From an uncultured Halobacteriovorax sp. (GTDB lineage Bacteria; Bdellovibrionota; Bacteriovoracia; Bacteriovoracales; Bacteriovoracaceae), in assembly GCA_913061265.1 (NCBI GenBank), contig CAJXVS010000001.1, positions 310,001 through 374,000 on the forward strand: DNA of 64,000 nucleotides. The letters are read 5' to 3'. Numbering within the stretch: the stretch's first letter is position 1; each line of letters starts with the position of its first letter. Made by a program: the position numbers and the translations under genes. The notes beneath the pieces are model-generated. The model was given only the letters and a program-made list of their open reading frames with translations. It made no database searches and was not told the DNA's origin. This document shows positions 2,934 to 18,670 of this stretch, piece after piece.

Positions 2934-3221
2934 TTAGTTACATCTGTATTTTACGTAAGCTGACCACTGCTTCTGAAGCTCACCATGTCTATTTACTCGG
3001 TAAGACATTCCGTTAACACCAGCGCCATAAACTTTAGCATTTCTGCTATTACAATTCTGAAGTCTAATTCTTCTGCTCTTGATCGCTTCAACAACATCCA
3101 TCATTTTTGCTTCAGCGTCCGCTGAACTAATACGACTAAAGACAGTGTGAACACCAGTTTCAGTTTCGGCAAAGATGGCCGTTGATGTTAGTAGTGCGAA
3201 AGCTAAGATAAGTTTTTTCAT
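2934..3221 (-). CDS. Small exported two-cysteine protein (local paralogue family)
   Basis: A 95-residue protein with a clear signal peptide (MKKLILAFALLTSTAIFA) and a short mature domain. The mature part has just two cysteines, C57 and C94, the second at the very end in KYRC, suggesting one disulfide. It shares YRVNRHGELQKQ and the terminal KYRC pattern with the genes ending at 4729 and 5079, so the three are paralogues. SD-like GGAG lies just upstream of the ATG. I do not recognise a database family. Export through Sec is predicted; function unknown. An inverted repeat at 3320-3339 lies about 100 bases upstream. Confidence 0.8.
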   Translation of the reverse strand: MKKLILAFALLTSTAIFAETETGVHTVFSRISSADAEAKMMDVVEAIKSRRIRLQNCNSRNAKVYGAGVNGMSYRVNRHGELQKQWSAYVKYRCN

Positions 3222-3319
3222 TGTTTCTCTCCTTTAAAAAGAAATGTTTTGATTTGTTGAAATATATTTATCGAGTGCCGCCTTCTTCCTCAACCAAACA
3301 AATCTTTTAACAAGAATAT

Positions 3320-3339
3320 CTGTACCTTTTTGAGTACAG
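3320..3339. promoter_or_regulatory. Inverted repeat CTGTAC-N8-GTACAG, candidate operator (copy 1)
   Basis: A perfect 6-bp inverted repeat with an 8-bp spacer lies in the divergent region between the small exported protein gene (starts 3221, reverse) and the TIGR02147 regulator gene (starts 3473, forward). The same arms and spacer length recur at 5441-5460, upstream of two paralogous genes. The reverse complement of this copy shares CTGTACTCAA with that copy. The symmetry suits a dimeric regulator; the neighbouring TIGR02147 protein is the obvious candidate, by inference only. Confidence 0.6.
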
Positions 3340-3472
3340 AGAATGTTCGTCACGGGAGGAAATCAAACGTTAAAGTAGTTGATTACAGGTATGTTTACTG
3401 AAGTTTCGTCGTCACACTTTTTGACAGTGAATTTTGAAACTTATATTTTACGTGGACCAAGGGAGTACAAAA

Positions 3473-4318
3473 ATGGATCAAGAGATTAACCTCCCTCCAG
3501 AGGTGAGAAGCTATTCAGACTACAGAGTCTTTTTAAAAGATTTCTTTTCATATAAGAAAACAGAGAACTCAAACTATAGCCATAGGGTCTTTATTAGAAA
3601 GGCAGAGATGAGCTCCCCTAGTCATTTAAAGATGGTCATTGATGGAAAAAGAAATTTAACGGGCAAAACCCTTAAGAAATATATAAGTGCAATTGGCCTA
3701 AAGAAGAAAGAGGCGAACTTCTTTTCCTTATTGGTGAACTATAATCAAGAATCGAATCATGAAGAGAAAATAGCTCTTTTTCAAGAGATCATGAATGAGA
3801 GAAGAAAGAAAGGACTCTCAGATATTGAAGAAGTCCAGTACGACTTCTTATCAAAATGGCACTATGTTGCTATTTACTGCCTCCTTGATCTTAAGGGTTT
3901 TAACTCAGACCCCGCATGGATTTCTTCAAAGCTAAAAAAGAAGGTTTCTCTTCAAAATATAGAGAAGGCCTTAAGTGAACTAAAAAGACTAAAACTTATA
4001 GCTGAAAATGATAAAGGTGAATTAGTCCAAACGAATGGTCCCCTCGACACAAGTGATCAGGTGCAAAGCTTAGCCTTCAGAACTTATCATAAGAACATGG
4101 GAGAGCTTGCCATAAGCTCTCTTGAGAACGAAAAAGTTGAACACCGAGAATTTAATGGTGTCACCATTCCTATTGATGTTAATAAACTAGATATTGTAAA
4201 GGAGATGATTAGGGCCTTTAGAATCGAGCTTAATGAAGTCGCTAGTAATATGGAAAACCCTAATGAAGTCTACCAAATGAACATCCACTTCTTCCCCCTC
4301 ACAGAGGTTAACAAATGA
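3473..4318 (+). CDS. TIGR02147 / DUF4423 family regulator-like protein
   Basis: A 281-residue protein matching the TIGR02147 family known from Bdellovibrionota and Fibrobacter. It opens with YRVFLKDFF and a helix-turn-helix-like stretch (SSPSHLKMVIDGKRNLTG), continues with FFSLLVNYNQ, a second winged-helix-like part (WHYVAIYCLL through LKRLKLI), and ends with the family's IRAFRIEL and YQMNIHFFPLT. ATG 3473 is chosen over a TTG at 3434 because GGGAG lies 7 nt before it. The stop overlaps the start of the next gene by 4 nt. Family members are thought to be transcription factors; here the role is probably to control the surrounding exported-protein genes. Confidence 0.85.
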   Translation: MDQEINLPPEVRSYSDYRVFLKDFFSYKKTENSNYSHRVFIRKAEMSSPSHLKMVIDGKRNLTGKTLKKYISAIGLKKKEANFFSLLVNYNQESNHEEKIALFQEIMNERRKKGLSDIEEVQYDFLSKWHYVAIYCLLDLKGFNSDPAWISSKLKKKVSLQNIEKALSELKRLKLIAENDKGELVQTNGPLDTSDQVQSLAFRTYHKNMGELAISSLENEKVEHREFNGVTIPIDVNKLDIVKEMIRAFRIELNEVASNMENPNEVYQMNIHFFPLTEVNK

Positions 4319-4713
4319 AAAAGAAACTACTTTGTCTTTGCACACTTTCACTTCTTTCATTAGATTCATTTGCAGCGAGAGGAGGCGTAGGAGTTGGTAA
4401 TGGCCATGTGATTGCTGGGATCAATATTAATCAAGGTATTAAAACTAAAGAACAAGCTGTTGAACTCTTAAAGAAGTTGGCTGCTGAAATAAATGCTGGG
4501 AACTCTTCAAGAGTAAATAGTTTTATTAGAGAAGGCGGATGTGAAAAAGAGTACAGCGTCTTTAACGATGCTGAGTTCTTTGACTTCTATCCTATTGAAA
4601 AAGATTCGGTAAAAAGGACAGGCCAAGTCGCCATGCACTTAAGAGTCTTTCTCAAGAATTGTAAGAAGCTCTCTAAAATAAAAGATGATGATGTGTTTGA
4701 CGGGCCTAAATAA
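4315..4713 (+). CDS. Exported protein of unknown function, coupled to TIGR02147 gene
   Basis: The 132-residue product has a signal peptide (KKKLLCLCTLSLLSLDSFA) followed by a glycine-rich start to the mature chain (ARGGVGVGNGHV) and an alpha/beta-looking domain. The mature part holds two cysteines (C76 and C116), as in the three neighbouring small exported proteins, though I see no convincing sequence similarity to them. Its ATG overlaps the TIGR02147 stop codon (ATGA), so the two are translationally coupled. Small exported partners are common next to TIGR02147 genes in predatory bacteria. Function is unknown. Confidence 0.75.
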   Translation: MKKKLLCLCTLSLLSLDSFAARGGVGVGNGHVIAGININQGIKTKEQAVELLKKLAAEINAGNSSRVNSFIREGGCEKEYSVFNDAEFFDFYPIEKDSVKRTGQVAMHLRVFLKNCKKLSKIKDDDVFDGPK

Positions 4714-4720
4714 AAGGCCT
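4702..4720. terminator. Weak hairpin between convergent genes
   Basis: GGGCCT and AGGCCT pair over six base pairs around an AAATAAA loop, spanning the stop codon of the forward gene and the 16-nt gap to the convergent reverse gene. It lacks a good U-tract on the forward strand, so it is only a possible terminator. Confidence 0.3.
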
Positions 4721-4728
4721 GCGAGGAA

Positions 4729-5079
4729 TTAATCGTTATTGCTATTTGAACATCTCTTGTGGGTTATCTTAACTGTTGCCTGCTGAAAGGTTTCAAGTTC
4801 CCCGTGGCGGTTAACTCTGTAGGCCTTCTTAACAGTAACAGCTTCTAAATTGACGTACCTAGGCCTAGTAACCCCGCAGCCTCTTTGAGAGTAGATATTT
4901 CTTACCCTTTGATGTTGATACACACCCTTTCCATTCTTAAGTCCTTTTAAGGCCTCATCAACTTTATCTAGGGCCTCAGCATCGCTTTGCCCTTTAAACC
5001 TAAAGTAGAATTTATTTGTCCTAGCGGTTGCCATTGTAGCGAAGCTTAAAAGAGATAAGACTATTAAAGTATTTATCAT
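4729..5079 (-). CDS. Small exported two-cysteine protein (local paralogue family)
   Basis: A protein of 116 residues from ATG 5079; a GTG at 5088 would add three residues. The ATG is preferred because it forms a TAATG overlap with the stop of the upstream paralogue, a typical coupling arrangement, and directly precedes the signal peptide MINTLIVLSLLSFATMA. The mature part has two cysteines about 42 residues apart and the segment YRVNRHGELETFQQATVK, nearly the same as the paralogue at 2934-3221. It ends in a polar SNSNND tail. It is the most divergent of the three. Function unknown, probably exported and disulfide-bonded. Confidence 0.75.
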   Translation of the reverse strand: MINTLIVLSLLSFATMATARTNKFYFRFKGQSDAEALDKVDEALKGLKNGKGVYQHQRVRNIYSQRGCGVTRPRYVNLEAVTVKKAYRVNRHGELETFQQATVKITHKRCSNSNND

Positions 5080-5369
5080 TACCGGCACCTATACTTTAGA
5101 TGAGCTAAGTAGAAGGCCTTAATATTCCCATCTCTGTCAGTTGTATAACGAAGACCAGGTACATCTACGGCGTAGACTCGGCCTCTACCCATCCCATTAC
5201 ATTTATAATGAGGACCTCTGTAACGCCCTCTTTTAACCAGATCCATAACTTCTCTGATCCTAGGCTCTATCTCTTCTTCTGTTTCAAGGCGAAGAGAGAT
5301 AACTCCTGTTTCAACTTCTGCCATAACAGAAAGTGATATTAGGAATGTGAGTATGCAGAGTAATTTCAT
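5079..5369 (-). CDS. Small exported two-cysteine protein (local paralogue family)
   Basis: A 96-residue protein with signal peptide MKLLCILTFLISLSVMA, then AEVETGV, closely matching the AETETGV mature start of the paralogue at 2934-3221. C57 and C95 have almost the same positions as in that paralogue (57 and 94), and both end in KYRC plus one residue. The YAVDVPGLRYTTDRDGNI segment corresponds to YGAGVNGMSYRVNRHGEL. AGGAG precedes the start. It is the first gene of a two-gene unit with the gene ending at 4729, downstream of the inverted repeat at 5441-5460. No known family recognised. Confidence 0.8.
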   Translation of the reverse strand: MKLLCILTFLISLSVMAEVETGVISLRLETEEEIEPRIREVMDLVKRGRYRGPHYKCNGMGRGRVYAVDVPGLRYTTDRDGNIKAFYLAHLKYRCR

Positions 5370-5440
5370 TGAATCTCCTATGCCAGTTCTAGGATCCTAT
5401 TGATTTGAAGTCTAACTCAAACCATAAATTGAAGGGTTTC

Positions 5441-5460
5441 CTGTACTCAAATGTGTACAG
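5441..5460. promoter_or_regulatory. Inverted repeat CTGTAC-N8-GTACAG, candidate operator (copy 2)
   Basis: Perfect 6-bp arms with an 8-bp spacer, about 70 bases upstream of the small exported protein gene starting at 5369 and 125 bases before the forward gene at 5585. It matches the copy at 3320-3339 in arms and spacing. I saw no third copy in the window. Confidence 0.6.
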
Positions 5461-8761: not shown

Positions 8762-11700
8762 ATGATTCAGTTATTACCCTATTTACTCATAGTAGCGTGT
8801 TGTTTTTTAGCACCGGTAGATTCCTTTGCACTCATTTCTAAAGTCGGTTTTTTTAGCGGAACTGAAACGACGGCCCCAACAACTTCAAACAATCTAAATC
8901 AGGCAACGGCCTATTCAATGAAATGGGATCAATCAAAGTTTGATACTAATTACTTTTCTCACTCAACAGGAAGTTTCTCTCATCAGGTGACGGTTCTCCT
9001 TGCAGGAGACTATAAACTAACTTTAGCAGCGCCGCTTTATTTGACGACAACGACAGGATCTAGAAGATCAGTCAGAGCTGAAGTTTATGTCAATGGAGTT
9101 GTCACTCCCCATGGGATTGCCGAATCAAGTTATATACGAAATGCTAATAACCACCAAGAATCATCCCTACACCTAGGAATTCTTTTAAAAGGACTCTCTG
9201 CTAACGATAAAGTTGAAGTCAAGTTCAACCAAGGGACTTCTGCTGGAGACTTAGACACTTCAGGCGCTAAATTATTTATGGAAAATGTTGATAGTGCTAA
9301 GGATATCTTCTCAGCGACAGGAACGAGAACGACCAGCTCTACCAACCTCAATCAGAACACCGCATTTGATTTTGAATGGTCAACAGTAGCGACTAAAGAT
9401 TCCATTTATACTCACAACGTTGGGGCATCTCCTGAGACGATTCAAGTAGGCACTACAGGTAGTTATTTTGTCTTTGTTAATATTCCTTTAGATCATAGTG
9501 TCGCCTGTACTGGTAACAGAGTGAATATTTTAGCTGACATTGAAATTAATGGTTCTCCATTTTCTGGTGGTAGTTTCTCTCAAGGATATATACGTTGTTT
9601 AGAGGGTCACTCTCGCTCTTCTATACACTGGTTTGGTGTTGTTGATTTAACTTCTCTTGATAACCTGAGCATCTCTTTAATTGCTGAAGGAACAGTTCTT
9701 AACACAGTGACAGTCCCTGGAAGTAGAGAAGGTTCCATTTATTTAGAAAGAATTGATTCTACTTCTGAATCAATTTCTCTTTCTTCGACTGCCTTAACCT
9801 CTGGAACGAACTGGAATACGGGAACCTCTGGAGTCGCTCTTAGTTGGAATGGTCAAAAATTTAAAGATGCTACTACTTTTAATCATTCAACTTCAACTAA
9901 CCCTGAACAAATAATTTTTAATGAACCAGGTGATTACTTACTTTTTTATAGTGATGAATTAACTACTGCCTCAGCCAGAATTAATCCTAATATTAACTTT
10001 AAAATAAATGGCGTTACGATAGATGGGGGTGAATGTAGCACTCACTATATGAGAAATGCTGAAGGTCATAATAATAGTTCTTGCTCAACTATTATTCCCC
10101 TAACAGGAATTGATGCAGGAGATATTTTAAAAATTGAAACTGCTCTTGAGGCGCAAACAGGGACGGCCACTTCGACAGGAAATTCTTATTTAACTATTAG
10201 AAAGAAAACCAATGAAATCCCAACTTTTGATATTGAGGATATTCCAAATAAGGTCCTTCATCTAGATGGTTCAGACTTCTCAAGTGTTCTAGATGGTAGT
10301 TCTAGAGATGCCAATGATATTTCTTTTACTGATACTGATGTTAAAACCTTCAAGGATATATCTGGCTCAACTAATATTCATAACGGCTTTCAAAACACAG
10401 CGGGAAGAAGACCAGACTTTGATACTGCTAATAAAATGATGATGTTTGATGGGACAGATGATTATTTTGATTTTAATAATCACGCTGACCTTAACTTATC
10501 TACTATAGATGAAAGAACTTTTGCCATTGCCTTTAAAACAAACGCTGATGTAACCTCTCGCCAAGTTATTTACGAAGAAGGCGGGACAGTTAGGGGCCTT
10601 AATGTTTATATCAGGGCCGGTAATTTATATATTGGGGTTTGGAATAATACAAATGACGGAGATGGAGTCCAGGCCTTTACCTCTTCTAATACAGCTGTCT
10701 CGGCCAATACTCATTATTATGTCTCTCTAGTCTTTGATTACTCAAATTACTCAGGACCCAGTGGCCCTGATGGTGAGCTTAGAGGTCATATTAATGGGGT
10801 TAAGTTTTCGGCCCTTGGAACAACAACCAGTAAGCTCTACGCTCACGCAGGACTCATAGGTCTTGGTGCTATGAGAAACGATAGTTATTTTGATGATGGC
10901 ACCCAAGGTGGAGATGGAAATTACTTTGATGGCTCTATCTTTGAGTTTATTATGTGGAACTCTGCTATTGATGATGGAACCGCCATAAATATCTATGACT
11001 ACTTCGTAGAAAAATGGCCTGACCCACAACCAGTGACTAACCTTCAATTAGACTCACAGTATACTTCAGCAACAGGTAGCACTCCTTTAATTTCTTGGAC
11101 GGCAAGTATTAGCCCCGATGTTGATCATTATGACGTAGCGGTAGGAACCAGTGCAGGCGCTACTGATACTTTAGCTTTTACAGATCAAGGGCTAGTCACT
11201 AGCACAACAATTTCAGGCTTAACTCTTAGTGAATGTACAGATTATTTTGCTTCAGTTAAAGCAATCGATACAGAGCCCAAAGAATCAACAATAGTTTCAA
11301 CAGAATTTTTTAAATATGATGGAACTGCTCCTAGCGCTCCTTCATCCCCAGCAATTACAGGTTCAGGATCAACTTCAGTTTCAAAACAGTTTAACTGGTC
11401 CCCTTCAATTGATACTTGTTCATTCTCTCACTATGAAATTGGACTTGGGACTACCTCTGGAGCAACTGATACGGTGGTCTTTACTAATATCGGAAACACT
11501 ACTGACCATATCTTTACAGGTCTTAGTCTTTTAAGCGCTACAAACTACTTTTTCACACTAAGAGCAGTTGATAGTGCAGGAAATACTTCTTCCGTTTTAA
11601 ACAGCGGTGCTTGGCAAATAGACACTTGTGTTGCAACAGATACAACCAACCCAACAGATCCATCGGGCTTAATAATATCAGGAAATGCGGGGCCTACAAC

Positions 11701-14700
11701 AAGTCCTAGTCTAAGTTATAGCGCCAGTAGCGATGCTTGTGGTTTTTCTCATTATGAAATTGCTATTGGCCTTACTTCAGGATCTACTGATGTAGTCTCT
11801 TTTACCAATGTAGGAGATGTTTTAACTCACAAGTTCTTCTCTATAACTCCTAGCTTATCGACGAATACAGATTATTTTACCTCAGTTAAAGCAGTAGATT
11901 TAGCTGGCAATGACTCAGGAACAGTAACCACAGCTGCTTGGCAACTTCCCTCTCCAGGAGGAGTTAGCCCAGCAGGGCTCGAAGCTTGGTTTGATGCAGA
12001 TGATTTAGGAACTCTTTATCAAAACGCCGCCTGCTCTACCCCAGTCACGACAGATGGACAAAATGTACTTTGCTGGCAGGATAAGTCAGCTAGTTCTAAT
12101 AACGCAACAATAGCTGCGAACAATCCTACTTATCAGACAAATGAATTCAATGGCAAAGCAGTTATAAGATTTGATGGCACGAATGACGTTTTAGATCTTG
12201 GAACTAATATCTCGACGATTAGAACAGTCTTTATAGTAAATAAATCTGATTCAAGTAATCACCAATTACTTCTAGGTCATAACTCATCTCAAGACTTCTA
12301 TACAGATAATGGAACGCTTCTTAATACAGGAACGGCCAATAGTAATTTAACCTCTGGTTCATGGCGGGTTAACAGAGTTTCAGAGTCTGATCCTACGAAC
12401 TTTAATCAATCTGGACAGTATTCATTATACTCAGTTACGACTTCAGGAAATGTTGAAGCGAATAATCTTTCCTCTGATAGAAAAGTAGCTGGGCGGTTTT
12501 TCCAAGGAGACTTAGTTGAAGTCATCGTCTTCTCTAGAGTCTTAACCTCAGATGAAGTAGAAGATGTTGAAGATTACCTTTATAATAAATGGTTTGATGC
12601 TGCTCCTGACGCTCCAACTGCTATTACCTATGATCCCACTTATACTTCAGTTTCAAACTCGAGCCCTCTTATTTCTTGGGCCCACTCTAGCGCCCCAGAT
12701 TTAAATAACTACGAACTCTCTATCGGAACTTCTTCAGGCGCCAATGATATTTATGGCTTCTCTGATATTGGGCTTATAAACTCTACAACTATTACAGGGA
12801 TTTCAACGACTGAATGTACGCCTTATTATGTATCTCTTAAGGCCATTGATACAGACACTTTCTCCTCTCCAGTAGCTGAGGGTAGTGAGTTTTACTTTGA
12901 TCAAACAAACCCATCTGAACCTGGATCGGGATCACTTTCGGGCGTTGCAAGCAATGACACTTCTCCTACCTTTACTTGGTCCACCTCGACTGATTCCTGC
13001 CTTCTCTCTCACTACGAAGTTGCTCTTGGAACGACTTCTGGTGGAAATGAAACTATTGATTGGCAAAATGTTGGTATTACAAATTCTCATATCTTTAATA
13101 GCATAGCTCCAGTATTAAGCACTGCTACTGATTACTTTATCTCAGTTCGTTCAGTTGATATGGCGGGAAATAAGTCGACGATTAAATCAAGCGCCTCTTG
13201 GCAGGTTGCAACTTGCGTTGCAACTGATACTACGAACCCTACAAACCCTTCAACTTTAAACCTTACTCAAGACCCAGGGCTTTCAAAATCAAAACTTTTA
13301 AGTTTTACGGGTAGTACTGATGCTTGTGGACTTTCTCATTACGAAGTGGCGCTAGGAACAACATCTGGTGGAACGGATATATCAGGCTTTACTAATATTG
13401 GATTAGTCACATCTTATCAATTTACAGGAGTTTCACCTTATTTAAATTATAACCAGCCTTATTTTATGACAGTACAGGCAGTTGACCTGGCTGGTAATAA
13501 CTCAACACCAGTACCAAGTGCATCTTTTGAACTAACGAGCCCAGGAAATATTAGTGCAACAGGAATGAACCTTTGGCTAGACATGGAAGATGCTGATCAG
13601 CTTTTTACTGATAGCTCTTGCTCTACTGTGGCCAGTACCAACGATGAGCGGCTTAGATGCTTAAAGGATAAAAGTGGGGGCGATAACCATGCCGTTAATG
13701 CCAATACTTCTAATAGTCCTAAATTAAGAGTTAGCGATTTTAATGGATTAAAAAGTGCTTATTTTGATGGCTCACAAAATGAATTTTTAGACTTTGGAGC
13801 TCAGTCAACAATTAGAACTGTCTTTTGGGTTTTACAAGAAGATACTTCTAATCTTGGAGATACGTCTTTTTTATTAGGTGATCCCGCTGGAACCACCCAA
13901 CATTTTTCTCGCGCTTCAACTGGCGGTAATATCTTTGGAGGTTCTGCTTCTGCTAATGTTACTGGTGGAACCCTAAAGCATGACTCTACGACAATTACAG
14001 GAACAAGCACTATTATGCCCTCTTCTCCTGCTGTCTTAAGTTTAACAACAACAGGAAATGTTACAGCTTCTTCTTTCTCACGAGATAGAACTTCTTGTTG
14101 TGGTGGAAGAACTTGGGGTGGAAACTTAGCAGAACTTATTATCTTTGATAGAGTCTTAACCGCCTTAGAAGTTCTCGATGTAGAAAATTATCTGATGGTC
14201 AAATGGGGTATATCCCCGTCTACTACTGAATGGCTTGGAAGTACGGATACAGATTGGTTTACACCAGCAAATTGGAGTAACGGAGTCCCCACTAAAGACC
14301 TAGATTGCATTATTAACGATCAGGCCAACGACCCAGTCATCACTTCTGCCACTGGAGTCTGTAAAGATGTAGAATTAGGTTCTGGAACTCTTACCCTTAA
14401 TGGTGGAACAACTGAATCCTTAGAGGTTCATGGAGATTTCACCAATACAGGTACTTTTAATTATAACAGTGGAGTTCTTCGCTTTAAAGATGATGGATCC
14501 ACTTCTGCAGATCAAAATATCCTCACAAATCAAAACCTAGGAAATGTAGAGGTTGATAAATCTGCTGGGGGCCTAGTATCTTCTTCAACGAGTAGCTTTT
14601 CGATTGATGACTTAATTTTCACAGGAACTAATCTTTCTACCTTTAAAGTAGAATCTAATAGCACAGTAACTCTTGTTGGCGGTGCTACCGTTCAAAAAGG

Positions 14701-17700
14701 AACTTTCCTTTTAGATAATAAAGCAGTCTTGGAAGTAGGGAACAACCAAACCATTCTCGTTAATGGAGGTACATTTCAAACAACTGGTATCAATGATGCC
14801 CATACCCAAGATACTACGAACAAAGCGCTTATTACAGTAGCTGGTGGAACTGGCGATTGGACCTTCAACGCCACCTCAGGTCAAGTTTCTCTCTCAGGTT
14901 TTATCATTGATAAAATCGATATTGATGGGATTCAAATCAATGGATCATCAAATCTAACAGTCTTCCAAGGTGGCCAGTTCACAAACCTTATAAAAGATTA
15001 TGCTACTCCAGTTAAGGCCCTTACATTAAATACAAGCACCCCTATCTCCGCGGCTATTGCTTCGAATGTAGGATTTAATTGGGGTGCTGCTAATGATACT
15101 TATGCAGGGGATCCGGTTCAAGCTGATAACTATTACCTTGTTTATGCCAACGCTTGTGGTGGAAATACTTTAGTCTTTGATCAGTGGTTTGGAGACTTTT
15201 ATCAAACTGGAGTTTCCCCTGAGACAAAGATTTTTGATCTAGATGACTCTGGATCGACTTGCCAAATTGTCATGGACGTAGGAGCTTCTCCTGTCACCCT
15301 TAAAAACTTTGAAGCTACGGGGCATGACGAGTCTGTTCTTGTGAGCTGGTCTACTATCATGGAGACAGATCATTTAGGATTTAATATCTACAGAAGTGAT
15401 ACCTATAACGGAAATTACGTTCAGATCAATAGTGAACTACTTAGAAACTACTTAACCTCCTCGTCACTTCGCGGATACTATCGATTCGAAGACTTAGGTC
15501 TTCAAAATGGAAAAAGCTATTATTATAAGATTGAAGACATCTCATTAGATGGAAACAAAAAGGCTCATGGACCTGTAAGCGCAGAAACAAATGCCGCCAA
15601 TGGGGCTATTCCCGCAGTTGGCGCAGGAGAGAATCAACTCCCTACTCCAAACCCAGTCGTTGATTTAGGGACAGGAGTTAGTATACTCTCTCAAACTAAA
15701 ACAAGTTTAAGAATTAAAATCACGCCACAAAATTTAACCGTCACAAACTCTGGCTTTAACCCCTCTTATAGTGATCTCTCTATTCCAGGTTATTCAAAAA
15801 CAATTGAAGCCGGTAGGCCAGCGCTTTTAAATAGAGTTATTTTAATTCCAGTTGATGTAAACTTCACTTCTTTGACTTCAACTGAGATTAACCTTATTCA
15901 AAGCGATAGCTCAGCAGCGCTTAGTGGGAATAAAGTATCCCCCGCTCCAGAGTGGAATTTAGGAGGAACTGGTGTCCTAGAGCCAACTTATAATGTCGAC
16001 AACAGTTTTTATGCTATTAACCAAGTACTACCTCAAAGTTTTTATGCCCTTCCTGAGGAAGCCAAAAAGATTGGGAACAAATACTATCTGGAGATTAACG
16101 TCACTCCCCTTAACTATAACCCTGTAACAGATAGTTTAATTAAGCTAGATGAAGTTGTTGTAGATATTGGACTTGATGGTGATGCTTGGTCTTATGACCC
16201 TCCCGCCGATGATTCAGTTATTGAGCCCGCCGCTTTAGAAGGAAATTTAAGAGTTAAGTATAAAAAAGAAGGATTTTTTCAAATTACCTTTGATCAATTA
16301 TCTAATCAAAATCTTGAAGGTCCTTTCTACAATCAAGCAACTGCTGGGTTTAGAGTTTATTATCACGGCATCGAGCTTCCTCTAGAGATTATTGATGCTG
16401 ATGGCGCTTTCAACTCTGGAGATAAAATAAATTTCTACGCTCCTTTTGAGTACTCATTTGAAGATGATGAGGATGAAGTTGTCTTAAGCCTCTTTGATCT
16501 AGATGAAACGAATGATCATGAAAATTGGGATTCGCCTCGTAGGTTTGATCCTGTATCCAATAATGATGCTATTCCTAACGGAAGTTTTGGCTCTCTTGAG
16601 AGGACTGATCTTTATGAAGAAAACTTAATCGCTCTTTTTAATGTTCCACTTGGTGATAATGTTGAACATCTTTATTGGAAGCAAATTTATACTGTGGGAG
16701 GAAGCACTCCTAATGCTAACTCAAGACTCGATGTGAATATTGATTTGAATTCATTAAATAAAGACTCTGATAAGACTGTTTATGTAAAAGTCTTCTTTAG
16801 AGGCAGAATGTCATTTCTTTCCTACAACACCACAAAGCATAATCTTGGTCTTAAGGTAAATGGCTCTGCTGTCCTTGATAACGTTGTCTTTTCAACGACA
16901 GCACCGACGGCCCATACATTTGAGATTCCTTCGAGTGAATTCATTCAAGGCGCTAATATCCTAGGACTAGAAGTTCAAGGAGATAAACTAGAGCTTGCTG
17001 GTGATTACGATATCATTCATATCGATAAAATTGAGATTACTTATGACTCTCTCAGTAACTCAGAAAATGATGAACTTCTTCTTAAAGGTACTACTGCACA
17101 TTCACAAATGATTGCTGGAGGTTTTTCGAGTGATCAAATTGAAGTCTTTGATATCTCAAATCCAAAAGAAGGTCTTAAGTATTTAGACCAAGCTATTAAT
17201 ACCGATGATGGAGGAACTCGCTTTTATACCCTTTTTAACACTCATCCAGGTAATTACGGAGCTAGTGGTTCAAACCTATGGGTTAAAGAGAAGGATCAAT
17301 ATTCTTCGCTTAGTCTCTTAAAGTTAGTAGAAGGCTTTGAGTATGATCTTAAGCTAAGTGAGAACCGCGCTGACCTTTTAATCCTTTCTGATCAGGAGCT
17401 CTTAGATGTGGCAGAGCCATTAATAGAGGCCCGCCGCGCGCAGGGTCTTGAAGTGATGGCCACAAGTTTTGAACAGGTCTACGCTCAATTTAGCAATGGA
17501 AGAATCTCAGTACAGGCCATAAAAGACTTTGTTCAATACGCTCTTGATACTTATGAGGTTAAACCTAGATACCTTCTCATTCTAGGTGATGCCTCTTACG
17601 ACTCTAAAGCTGCTCTGGCCGTCAGTGCTGGAATTAAGAAGAGCCCTATCCCTCTTGTAAAAGGTCTTCATAATGATTATGGCTCGGATCAGTGGTTTGC

Positions 17701-18670
17701 TGAAGATAGAGTAACAGGTGCTCCAAGATTAAGTATTGGACGTATTCCAACTTCAGACCCTATTAAGCTTGAAAACTATTTAGTAAAACTATTAGCTTAT
17801 GAATCTGGTGAACGAGCACCTCTAGATTCTAGAGTTAAAACAACTTCATTTATTGTAGGAACTGAATCTACTGAAGGTTTTTCAAATTACGTCTCAGCTT
17901 TAAGTCAAATATCTAGTGACCAATTTAGCTCAACATCTGATGAAATTATCGACAGAAATCAGCTTGGAAGTGATGCTAGTACTAAGGCCTCTATCAACGG
18001 ACTCTTCAATGATGCTCCTCTCTTTGTGACTTATTATGGGCATGGAGGAGAAGGTGAATGGGGAAGCTATGATGGAGATACTTTCTATGAAGTAAGTGAC
18101 GCTCAAGCGCTTAATAATGAAAAGCTTCCTATTGTCATGGCCTTTAACTGCCTTAACGGGCATTTCTATGATGCTAATGGATCCTCTACTTCCTTAGCTG
18201 AAGAGATGGTCTTGAATAAAGATGGAGGTGCTGTGGCCTTTTGGGGATCGACTACACTCTCCTCTCCTGTTTCACAAAACAACCTTGCGACTTCTTTTAT
18301 GAACGAGCTCGTTAGAGAATCTAAGACCAATTATTCTAAGGACACAACTATTGGAGATCTCTTTTTAGCCTCTAAGCTTAAGCAATCAAATGATGCTGTA
18401 ACAAATGATACGGTTAAAAGTATGGTTCTTATTGGGGACCCTTCTATGAAGATGCCTGCAGCTGTCTTTAATTCAGAGCCAATCTCAGCTGCTCCTACGA
18501 CTAGTCAGGCTAGTGCAGGTGGCGGCGGTTGTTCAGCTGTTGCTGGTGAAGGCGTCGTTAGTAAATCATGGGATGCTGGACTCTTAGAGATCTTTTTTCT
18601 CTTCTTCTTTGGGTTTTGCATAAAAAGAAGTCTTAATTTTTTGGGCAGCTTTTCTTCTTCGAATAAATAA
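8762..18670 (+). CDS. Giant surface protease: gingipain-type C25 domain, LamG/FN3 modules, sorting tail
   Basis: A 3302-residue protein with an N-terminal signal peptide (~1-25). Modules in order: three ~150-residue repeats (27-484); a LamG-like domain (~490-757); three fibronectin III-like repeats (~755-1065); LamG-like (~1067-1279); three more FN3-like repeats; LamG-like (~1596-1820); a region opening TDWFTPANWSNGVP (~1825); an FN3-like unit (~2177-2270); then a C25 protease domain (~2860-3220). The presumed catalytic pair is H3094 in YYGHGGEGEWG and C3130 in AFNCLNGH, and LIGDPSMKMP closes the domain. The tail GGGGCS (3253-3258), a hydrophobic stretch (~3273-3287) and KR resembles GlyGly-CTERM/MYXO-CTERM sorting signals. 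It is likely exported by the type II system and held on the surface, where it could degrade or bind prey or host polymers. The 3' end overlaps the convergent gene by 38 nt. Confidence 0.88.
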   Translation: MIQLLPYLLIVACCFLAPVDSFALISKVGFFSGTETTAPTTSNNLNQATAYSMKWDQSKFDTNYFSHSTGSFSHQVTVLLAGDYKLTLAAPLYLTTTTGSRRSVRAEVYVNGVVTPHGIAESSYIRNANNHQESSLHLGILLKGLSANDKVEVKFNQGTSAGDLDTSGAKLFMENVDSAKDIFSATGTRTTSSTNLNQNTAFDFEWSTVATKDSIYTHNVGASPETIQVGTTGSYFVFVNIPLDHSVACTGNRVNILADIEINGSPFSGGSFSQGYIRCLEGHSRSSIHWFGVVDLTSLDNLSISLIAEGTVLNTVTVPGSREGSIYLERIDSTSESISLSSTALTSGTNWNTGTSGVALSWNGQKFKDATTFNHSTSTNPEQIIFNEPGDYLLFYSDELTTASARINPNINFKINGVTIDGGECSTHYMRNAEGHNNSSCSTIIPLTGIDAGDILKIETALEAQTGTATSTGNSYLTIRKKTNEIPTFDIEDIPNKVLHLDGSDFSSVLDGSSRDANDISFTDTDVKTFKDISGSTNIHNGFQNTAGRRPDFDTANKMMMFDGTDDYFDFNNHADLNLSTIDERTFAIAFKTNADVTSRQVIYEEGGTVRGLNVYIRAGNLYIGVWNNTNDGDGVQAFTSSNTAVSANTHYYVSLVFDYSNYSGPSGPDGELRGHINGVKFSALGTTTSKLYAHAGLIGLGAMRNDSYFDDGTQGGDGNYFDGSIFEFIMWNSAIDDGTAINIYDYFVEKWPDPQPVTNLQLDSQYTSATGSTPLISWTASISPDVDHYDVAVGTSAGATDTLAFTDQGLVTSTTISGLTLSECTDYFASVKAIDTEPKESTIVSTEFFKYDGTAPSAPSSPAITGSGSTSVSKQFNWSPSIDTCSFSHYEIGLGTTSGATDTVVFTNIGNTTDHIFTGLSLLSATNYFFTLRAVDSAGNTSSVLNSGAWQIDTCVATDTTNPTDPSGLIISGNAGPTTSPSLSYSASSDACGFSHYEIAIGLTSGSTDVVSFTNVGDVLTHKFFSITPSLSTNTDYFTSVKAVDLAGNDSGTVTTAAWQLPSPGGVSPAGLEAWFDADDLGTLYQNAACSTPVTTDGQNVLCWQDKSASSNNATIAANNPTYQTNEFNGKAVIRFDGTNDVLDLGTNISTIRTVFIVNKSDSSNHQLLLGHNSSQDFYTDNGTLLNTGTANSNLTSGSWRVNRVSESDPTNFNQSGQYSLYSVTTSGNVEANNLSSDRKVAGRFFQGDLVEVIVFSRVLTSDEVEDVEDYLYNKWFDAAPDAPTAITYDPTYTSVSNSSPLISWAHSSAPDLNNYELSIGTSSGANDIYGFSDIGLINSTTITGISTTECTPYYVSLKAIDTDTFSSPVAEGSEFYFDQTNPSEPGSGSLSGVASNDTSPTFTWSTSTDSCLLSHYEVALGTTSGGNETIDWQNVGITNSHIFNSIAPVLSTATDYFISVRSVDMAGNKSTIKSSASWQVATCVATDTTNPTNPSTLNLTQDPGLSKSKLLSFTGSTDACGLSHYEVALGTTSGGTDISGFTNIGLVTSYQFTGVSPYLNYNQPYFMTVQAVDLAGNNSTPVPSASFELTSPGNISATGMNLWLDMEDADQLFTDSSCSTVASTNDERLRCLKDKSGGDNHAVNANTSNSPKLRVSDFNGLKSAYFDGSQNEFLDFGAQSTIRTVFWVLQEDTSNLGDTSFLLGDPAGTTQHFSRASTGGNIFGGSASANVTGGTLKHDSTTITGTSTIMPSSPAVLSLTTTGNVTASSFSRDRTSCCGGRTWGGNLAELIIFDRVLTALEVLDVENYLMVKWGISPSTTEWLGSTDTDWFTPANWSNGVPTKDLDCIINDQANDPVITSATGVCKDVELGSGTLTLNGGTTESLEVHGDFTNTGTFNYNSGVLRFKDDGSTSADQNILTNQNLGNVEVDKSAGGLVSSSTSSFSIDDLIFTGTNLSTFKVESNSTVTLVGGATVQKGTFLLDNKAVLEVGNNQTILVNGGTFQTTGINDAHTQDTTNKALITVAGGTGDWTFNATSGQVSLSGFIIDKIDIDGIQINGSSNLTVFQGGQFTNLIKDYATPVKALTLNTSTPISAAIASNVGFNWGAANDTYAGDPVQADNYYLVYANACGGNTLVFDQWFGDFYQTGVSPETKIFDLDDSGSTCQIVMDVGASPVTLKNFEATGHDESVLVSWSTIMETDHLGFNIYRSDTYNGNYVQINSELLRNYLTSSSLRGYYRFEDLGLQNGKSYYYKIEDISLDGNKKAHGPVSAETNAANGAIPAVGAGENQLPTPNPVVDLGTGVSILSQTKTSLRIKITPQNLTVTNSGFNPSYSDLSIPGYSKTIEAGRPALLNRVILIPVDVNFTSLTSTEINLIQSDSSAALSGNKVSPAPEWNLGGTGVLEPTYNVDNSFYAINQVLPQSFYALPEEAKKIGNKYYLEINVTPLNYNPVTDSLIKLDEVVVDIGLDGDAWSYDPPADDSVIEPAALEGNLRVKYKKEGFFQITFDQLSNQNLEGPFYNQATAGFRVYYHGIELPLEIIDADGAFNSGDKINFYAPFEYSFEDDEDEVVLSLFDLDETNDHENWDSPRRFDPVSNNDAIPNGSFGSLERTDLYEENLIALFNVPLGDNVEHLYWKQIYTVGGSTPNANSRLDVNIDLNSLNKDSDKTVYVKVFFRGRMSFLSYNTTKHNLGLKVNGSAVLDNVVFSTTAPTAHTFEIPSSEFIQGANILGLEVQGDKLELAGDYDIIHIDKIEITYDSLSNSENDELLLKGTTAHSQMIAGGFSSDQIEVFDISNPKEGLKYLDQAINTDDGGTRFYTLFNTHPGNYGASGSNLWVKEKDQYSSLSLLKLVEGFEYDLKLSENRADLLILSDQELLDVAEPLIEARRAQGLEVMATSFEQVYAQFSNGRISVQAIKDFVQYALDTYEVKPRYLLILGDASYDSKAALAVSAGIKKSPIPLVKGLHNDYGSDQWFAEDRVTGAPRLSIGRIPTSDPIKLENYLVKLLAYESGERAPLDSRVKTTSFIVGTESTEGFSNYVSALSQISSDQFSSTSDEIIDRNQLGSDASTKASINGLFNDAPLFVTYYGHGGEGEWGSYDGDTFYEVSDAQALNNEKLPIVMAFNCLNGHFYDANGSSTSLAEEMVLNKDGGAVAFWGSTTLSSPVSQNNLATSFMNELVRESKTNYSKDTTIGDLFLASKLKQSNDAVTNDTVKSMVLIGDPSMKMPAAVFNSEPISAAPTTSQASAGGGGCSAVAGEGVVSKSWDAGLLEIFFLFFFGFCIKRSLNFLGSFSSSNK
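8840..10213 (+). repeat. Triplicated ~150-residue module at the N-terminus of the C25 giant
   Basis: Residues ~27-176, ~180-335 and ~336-484 align with each other. Each has an opening with N-x-N-T/Q-x-T/G, a central beta-rich part, and a shared core Y-[IM]-R-x-x-[EN]-x-H-x-x-S-S (YIRNANNHQESS, YIRCLEGHSRSS, YMRNAEGHNNSS). They look like beta-sandwich binding modules; I do not recognise the family. Confidence 0.7.

Follow-up and report, generated by a model that had tools for sequence, protein, structure and literature searches.

A palindromic candidate operator for a TIGR02147/DUF4423 regulator beside small exported-protein genes in an uncultured Halobacteriovorax

For the class I activator CRP, the passages on site position in PMC6301791 report strong activation from sites at -61.5, -71.5 and -72.5, and little from -66.5 and -76.5. 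For antitoxins of the Phd/YefM type, the portion of PMC7730913 that treats the operator describes it as a pair of TGTACA hexamers, with centres 12 bp apart, inside the promoter. For TIGR02147, DUF4423 or Fsuc_second, our search of the full-text literature, with subscription journals and preprints outside its scope, returned neither a function nor a DNA site, in keeping with an earlier note on the DNA studied here, which had called the TIGR02147 family one without a well described site; Bd3700 is entered as a DUF4423 protein in a table of a proteome paper. Here we describe a locus in a 64,000-nucleotide stretch of DNA from an uncultured Halobacteriovorax sp. (contig CAJXVS010000001.1, positions 310,001 to 374,000; hereafter the window), in which the gene of a TIGR02147/DUF4423 regulator lies between two copies of the palindrome CTGTAC-N8-GTACAG, next to genes for small exported proteins. 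Judging from sequence comparison, we consider it probable that the palindromes are operators of a dimer of this regulator, which would activate a local two-promoter regulon of small two-cysteine exported proteins.

The genome of the window (G000; 3,971,546 bp in 12 contigs) contains two perfect CTGTAC-N8-GTACAG sites, both at this locus and 2.1 kb apart, while its base composition predicts 0.17 perfect sites per genome and 0.003 per 64 kb. One further place in the genome matches with one mismatch. The palindromes were found exactly where the earlier note had put them, and its view that chance was an unlikely source agrees with these counts. Its 6-bp arms also stood, although not as the full extent of the motif: the conserved form is longer, about STGTACWCA-NN-TGWGTACAS, and site 2 has the full form TGTACWCA-NN-TGWGTACA. 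That the palindromes are chance occurrences, or terminator-like RNA hairpins without a regulatory role, seems to us highly improbable. On the minus strand, site 1 does score as a terminator-like stem, and across the family the bare pattern does not outnumber its reversal; yet two perfect sites within 2.1 kb stand against the 0.17 expected per genome, their position is conserved across genera and phased with promoter-like hexamers, and they lie upstream of genes, not behind them. The LexA SOS box has the spacing CTGT-N8-ACAG; the sites here read CTGT-N12-ACAG and do not fit that box.

We then compared the surroundings of orthologous regulators. A tblastn search of 129 family genomes with the regulator gave 19 loci, the window's included, at an identity of at least 43%, and each locus was scored against STGTACWCANNTGWGTACAS at 18 positions, the control being 600 mononucleotide shuffles, 20 for each of 30 loci. 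At least 15 of the 18 positions were matched in 18 of the 19 close orthologous clusters, and at least 16 in 15 of them, a count that is descriptive because the consensus was drawn from part of the scored set, so that consensus and loci are not fully independent of each other. The 600 shuffles reached 15 at most. In contrast, none of 11 distant TIGR02147 loci (30-39% identity) reached 15, the best scoring 13; this comparison, like the promoter phasing described below, depends less on the choice of consensus. In G044, which belongs to another genus, the 20-mer of site 2 recurs unchanged on the other strand, with an exported gene on one side and the orthologous regulator on the other. Within the genus, two genomes keep site 2 as TGTACTCA-NN-TGTGTACA amid diverged flanks, and their versions of site 1 have 2 and 1 mismatches to CTGTAC-N8-GTACAG. 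Several clusters hold two sites in the divergent region. The same collection of loci bears on the possibility that the sites belong to the neighbouring LysR-type regulator, whose gene (2073-2876) adjoins E95 in the window, or to another global regulator. We regard this as very unlikely, since tblastn finds the LysR-type protein just in the window and in L018 (same DNA) among 40 cluster loci, and from a global regulator one would expect the genome to hold more good sites than two.

The regulator scores 224.3 bits against TIGR02147 (cut-off 50), its residues 10-278 aligning with model positions 3-271/272, and its C-terminal part scores 135.2 bits against PF14394 (DUF4423; gathering score 30), a family matched by all 19 aligned orthologs at E <= 0.01. 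In its AlphaFold2 model (mean predicted local distance difference test score, pLDDT, 83.5; predicted template modelling score 0.56), an N-terminal helix-turn-helix (HTH) is followed by a C-terminal winged helix. The HTH (residues 14-100) matches HigA, DdrO, 434 Cro and P22 c2 at Z 6-8 (DdrO, Z 7.4 with 2.5 Å over 73 residues; 434 Cro, Z 6.3), modest values that may reflect merely a common arrangement, and the winged helix matches ArsR-like folds at Z ~6 and 4g6q at Z 8.2. A Pfam sequence search of the regulator gave no HTH match, a sequence-profile search of the PDB gave just TPR-repeat matches at residues 64-110, and no relative was found in viral contigs. The model's helix at residues 51-56 falls within SPSHLKMVID, of which SPSHLK does not vary among the 19 aligned close orthologs and M54 hardly does; the helix of L023 reads SPSHLKM.

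Helix and palindrome were compared over the best 80 of 374 relatives, at loci from named genomes. A TGTAC site scoring at least 15 was present at 14 of 17 SPSHLK loci, mostly the same clusters as in the 19-locus ortholog set, vs 2 of 63 other loci. The most telling case is that of L076 and L079, a further cluster present in two genomes of the window's genus: the regulator there has the helix SPSHFK, and the palindrome is YGTTCACGGCCGTGAACR. The palindrome of this paralog, TGTTCACGGCCGTGAACG, differs from the TGTAC site of the same genomes. The exact pattern YGTTCACN4GTGAACR occurs once each in G007, the nearest genome to the window's, and G053, both times beside the SPSHFK regulator, and is absent from G000, where the next-best match to the SPSHFK regulator scores 99 bits vs 612. 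With one mismatch allowed, this pattern is at background (10 places vs 17 for its reversal). In the tree, the L076/L079 pair lies inside a 25-row group that holds all TGTAC clusters, so the difference in palindrome arose between relatives. The earlier note's proposal that the TIGR02147 protein binds the palindrome draws support from these comparisons, with the motif beside 18 of 19 ortholog clusters and 0 of 11 distant loci and a palindrome that changes with the helix; neither of the outcomes that it had said would refute it came about, since perfect sites exceed background in the genome and the motif stands beside orthologous clusters, with the identical 20-mer even in another genus. Should the helix code hold, a Leu52Phe regulator would shift its preference towards TGTTCACG. 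The SPSHLK/SPSHFK pair, which combines different palindromes in one genome with the same promoter spacing, would offer a natural way to test how, after duplication, a regulator comes to have a regulon of its own. Two other loci are recorded here as observations. L083 has CGTTCTCAAACGAGAACA, a palindrome in an 18-bp frame, 268 bp upstream of a regulator match reading SPGHLK, and at L161 (G164:C137, 1358-1375) TGTATTCTATAGAATACA precedes an exported gene, behind which comes a TIGR02147 gene whose helix, STAHFNQ, is a different one.

The placement of the sites relative to promoters was examined with 21 hand-picked pairs of site and exported gene, of which two were dropped for downstream identity of at least 70%; the other 19 were aligned, ungapped, on the site. 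The mean match to TTGACA was 3.79 of 6 at offset 26 (counted from the end of the 20-mer), where 12 of the 19 sites had at least 4 matches; the mean over all offsets was 1.71 (standard deviation 0.45), and none of 2000 jittered alignments reached 3.79. Averaging within 11 groups by genus and cluster type gave 3.80. Both SPSHFK clusters, which had not been used to find the offset, have TTGAGA at offset 26 and TAATTT 17 bp further, and L019 has TTGACC-N17-TAAAAC at the place of the putative E96-E119 promoter. With a 17-bp spacer, the dyad centre falls near -71.5. On the regulator side no fixed spacing was seen: the best TTGAC-type hexamer lies 78, 81, 82, 88 or 114 bp from the site where visible, and the regulator's TTGACA, present in both same-genus relatives, keeps an 81-82 bp gap within the genus but not across genera. 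Fixed spacing to the exported genes, variable spacing to the regulator and the CRP positions cited above together lead us to regard the site as one from which a class I activator would act on the exported genes.

The direction of control could nevertheless be the opposite. From the same sites, the same protein could repress the exported genes, through looping or through the blocking of an element upstream, and could repress its own gene too. Repression is common among HTH regulators with this fold. Site 1 moreover lies in a divergent region common to the regulator, as do the paired sites of several clusters. We think repression unlikely, although it is the most serious of the alternatives. The sites overlap neither proposed promoter, and in most clusters 26 bp separate the site from the proposed -35 hexamer of the exported gene, while the distance to the regulator promoter varies; a fixed helical phase so far upstream would suit contact with RNA polymerase better than a steric block. 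The earlier note had named neither an activator nor a repressor, and the promoter phasing points to activation.

The longer form of the motif was also searched in the 129 genomes. With up to one mismatch, TGTACWCANNTGWGTACA occurs at 20 places vs 5 for the reversed pattern: 11 in clusters of exported genes and regulator, 5 before Phd/YefM-like genes, those of G021 and G042 in or by unrelated open reading frames (ORFs), and that of G044:C141 before an exported gene, a breakdown that covers 19 of the 20 places, all but G105:C21. The perfect CTGTAC-N8-GTACAG sites in G022 and G028 lie inside long ORFs, look like chance and were set aside. A long-form site, CTGTACGCAACTGTGTACAG, stands at 1501-1520 of L017 (G044:C141), 216 bp upstream of a gene for a 114-aa exported protein (1737-2081) and away from the regulator; this gene is a possible distant member of the regulon. 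At L150, L152, L154, L155 and L156 (near 1501 each), palindromes of the TGTACACA type lie directly upstream of Phd/YefM-like antitoxin genes.

With such palindromes before Phd/YefM-like genes in five family genomes, the window's sites could in principle be bound by a Phd/YefM-type antitoxin with the operator TGTACACATTTGTGTACA. This explanation is largely refuted, and we give it almost no weight. PF02604 has no match in 9 of the 12 genomes checked (G000, G007, G053, G085, G105, G079, G066, G010 and G128), although each of the nine carries the clusters; among the three with a match only G020 is above the cut-off, where the gene adjoins the genome's own extra palindrome. The cluster loci contain no such gene, and the window sites break the TGTACA hexamer (TGTACC/AGTACA and TGTACT/TGTACA). 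Furthermore, the operator of YefM is inside the promoter, whereas the window sites lie 26 bp upstream of a -35-like hexamer. Two unrelated regulators, the TIGR02147 protein and the Phd/YefM type, appear to use nearly the same palindrome core, as far as these sequences indicate.

What the sequences show is the sites themselves, their conservation, their association with the helix type and a constant distance to a promoter-like hexamer; we infer binding by the regulator, activation as its effect, any inducing signal and the role of the exported proteins. In the proposed mechanism, the dimer would bind about STGTACWCA-NN-TGWGTACAS through its lambda-repressor-like N-terminal HTH, with SPSHLKM as helix 3, and, centred near -71.5, would activate the promoters of E95 and of E96-E119 (4729-5369) in class I fashion. 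GG, a further exported member, is co-encoded with the regulator, and the C-terminal winged-helix DUF4423 part may sense or dimerise. In L030, L027 and L028 the exported genes precede the regulator, all in one direction, so the same site would be predicted to raise the regulator level there as well.

Several observations weigh against activation by this regulator at these sites. With up to one mismatch, the bare pattern has 3 places in this genome vs 7 for the reversed pattern, and perfect sites over 95 family genomes number 6 vs 13. Site 1 keeps the inner part of the motif on one side only and is degenerate inside. The sole close cluster below 15 is L031, where the contig is cut short upstream (L031/L071). 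Among the SPSHLK loci, those without a site are this cut L071 together with L066 and L081, which combine an SPSHLK-type helix and exported paralogs with no site. A 4-of-6 hexamer at offset 26 is lacking at 7 of the 19 sites, and the -10 signal is weak, with a mean of 2.95 at the expected offset and 3.05 two bases earlier. The partial overlap of consensus and scored loci, the hand choice of the 21 pairs and the modest fold scores belong on the same side. At up to three mismatches the window holds 16 sites vs 12.4 in shuffles, which is background. With these counts, the signal resides in the two copies, their place and their conservation rather than in a regulon spread over the genome; as far as the sequence scan shows, just the two promoter regions would belong to it in this genome. 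The genome scan that the earlier note had proposed thus came out above background for perfect sites, and without enrichment for the bare pattern with mismatches or over the 95 family genomes.

The upstream palindromes of other TIGR02147 clades fit a common frame, YGTNNNC-N4-GNNNACR. We tentatively suggest, with more doubt than confidence, that TIGR02147/DUF4423 proteins form an undescribed activator class sharing this 18-bp frame, in which the helix would read the three inner half-site bases (SPSHLK with ACW, SPSHFK with TCA, xPN[FY] with ATT), each protein would control adjoining exported proteins, and helix and operator, by changing in step, would insulate duplicated clusters of one cell from each other. 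In 80 loci, YGTATTC-N4-GAATACR occurred 12 times in 26.6 kb upstream of regulators vs 8 times in 519 kb elsewhere, with none for three control patterns, although the pattern was picked from the same loci in which it was counted. It was present in 13 of 79 loci, where it looks genuine as an operator code of other phyla, and exclusively with xPN[FY] helices (13 of 38), never with SPSH. Held-out loci gave a different picture: the pattern was absent from 22 new Myxococcota loci, one of which, L195, has a one-mismatch TGTAC-type site, and from the 2 new loci in 247 genomes of L090's phylum. Across 240 Bdellovibrionota genomes, 2 of its 11 sites were near a TIGR02147 gene, one apparently in the discovery genome of L099. 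These sites showed no constant distance to a promoter, and among the extra sites in 14 discovery genomes, L169, L170, L173, L180 and L181 had no TIGR02147 gene in the flanks examined. YGTATTC-N4-GAATACR was consequently rejected as a family-wide operator, and with these held-out failures the general code is a hypothesis and not a result. The genome of the window itself has 10 TIGR02147 matches, 8 of them above the cut-off, and the nine other than the regulator described here have no palindrome in the 18-bp frame upstream.

The features of the locus are collected in Table 1; from left to right the order is E95, site 1, regulator, GG, E119 and E96, site 2. The earlier note had rightly placed a TIGR02147 gene between the sites and had called the exported genes downstream of them paralogous. 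Iterated hidden Markov model (HMM) searches agree with the paralogy, uniting E95, E96 and E119 in a single group of small exported proteins to which GG belongs more distantly; the interval 3320-5460 that the note had drawn leaves E95 outside, so that site 1 lies between E95 and the regulator. Two cysteines are invariant in the E-type alignment and two likewise in the GG-type alignment, and GG-type genes also occur beside orthologous regulators. In the window the GG motif reads GGVGVGN. Pfam gave nothing convincing for the exported families. The model of E95 (pLDDT 83.9) has a beta-alpha-beta-beta fold, and a fold search with it against the PDB gave no match at E <= 0.001; as far as our literature searches reach, the exported-protein family is new. 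A G+C-rich, hairpin-like stretch at 2900-2923, read by eye between the convergent LysR-type gene and E95, is probably a terminator common to both. Elsewhere in the window, a single ORF of 3302 aa with a signal-peptide-like start (8762-18670) corresponds to a very large exported protein.

Table 1. Positions and basis of the features at the regulator locus, numbered from the first letter of the window
Feature	Coordinates	Strand	Basis
E95, small exported protein, 95 aa, first target gene	2934..3221	-	Signal-peptide-like start; conserved pair of cysteines; homology to E96 (96 aa) and E119 (119 aa)
Putative E95 promoter: -35 TTGAGG (3288-3293), 17-bp spacer, -10 TAAATA (3265-3270)	3265..3293	-	-35-like hexamer exactly 26 bp from site 1, an offset common to orthologs
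Site 1, CTGTACCTTTTTGAGTACAG	3320..3339	.	Perfect 6-bp arms
Putative regulator promoter, TTGACA-N17-TATTTT	3421..3449	+	Consensus scan, 10/12
TIGR02147/DUF4423 regulator, 281 aa	3473..4318	+	TIGR02147.1 E 1.9e-66; PF14394 E 2.5e-39
SPSHLKM codons (residues 48-54), predicted recognition helix	3614..3634	+	Overlaps model helix 51-56; covaries with operator class
GG, exported protein, GGVxVGN motif, two invariant cysteines	4315..4713	+	Start overlaps regulator stop by 4 bp
E119, exported paralog, second gene behind site 2	4729..5088	-	ORF list, HMM searches, cysteine alignment
E96, exported paralog, first gene behind site 2	5079..5369	-	ORF list, HMM searches, cysteine alignment
Putative E96-E119 promoter: -35 TAGACT (5409-5414), 17-bp spacer, -10 TAGAAC (5386-5391)	5386..5414	-	-35-like hexamer exactly 26 bp from site 2
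Site 2, CTGTACTCAAATGTGTACAG	5441..5460	.	Full long motif

Local regulators that act from a palindromic operator placed as for an activator are a known kind of system; the site of this family is, as far as our searches reach, new. With it, a widespread and little-studied regulator family of predatory and related bacteria would gain a DNA site, its first concrete one, together with a family of target genes and a direction of control, as proposed here. The regulator resembles its own family, TIGR02147 (Fsuc_second)/PF14394, in being a full-length member, and differs in having a candidate site, where the full-text literature searched describes none for the family. Like CRP at the lac promoter and other class I activators, it would use a palindromic site in fixed phase, here near -71.5 and one helical turn further upstream than -61.5, although it belongs to a different protein family and is not global. 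The lambda-repressor-like (XRE) HTH proteins, among them HigA, DdrO, 434 Cro and P22 c2, have a five-helix HTH in which helix 3 is the one that recognises DNA; residues 14-100 of the model resemble their fold at the modest Z values given above. Unlike them, the regulator would have an extra C-terminal winged helix and an activator geometry, where theirs is an operator overlapping the promoter. Finally, the TGTACA core and 12-bp spacing of the YefM/Axe operators can be read in the strongest sites, yet here the hexamers are the variants TGTACT and TGTACC, the sites lie upstream of the promoter, and no antitoxin gene is nearby or found in the genome.

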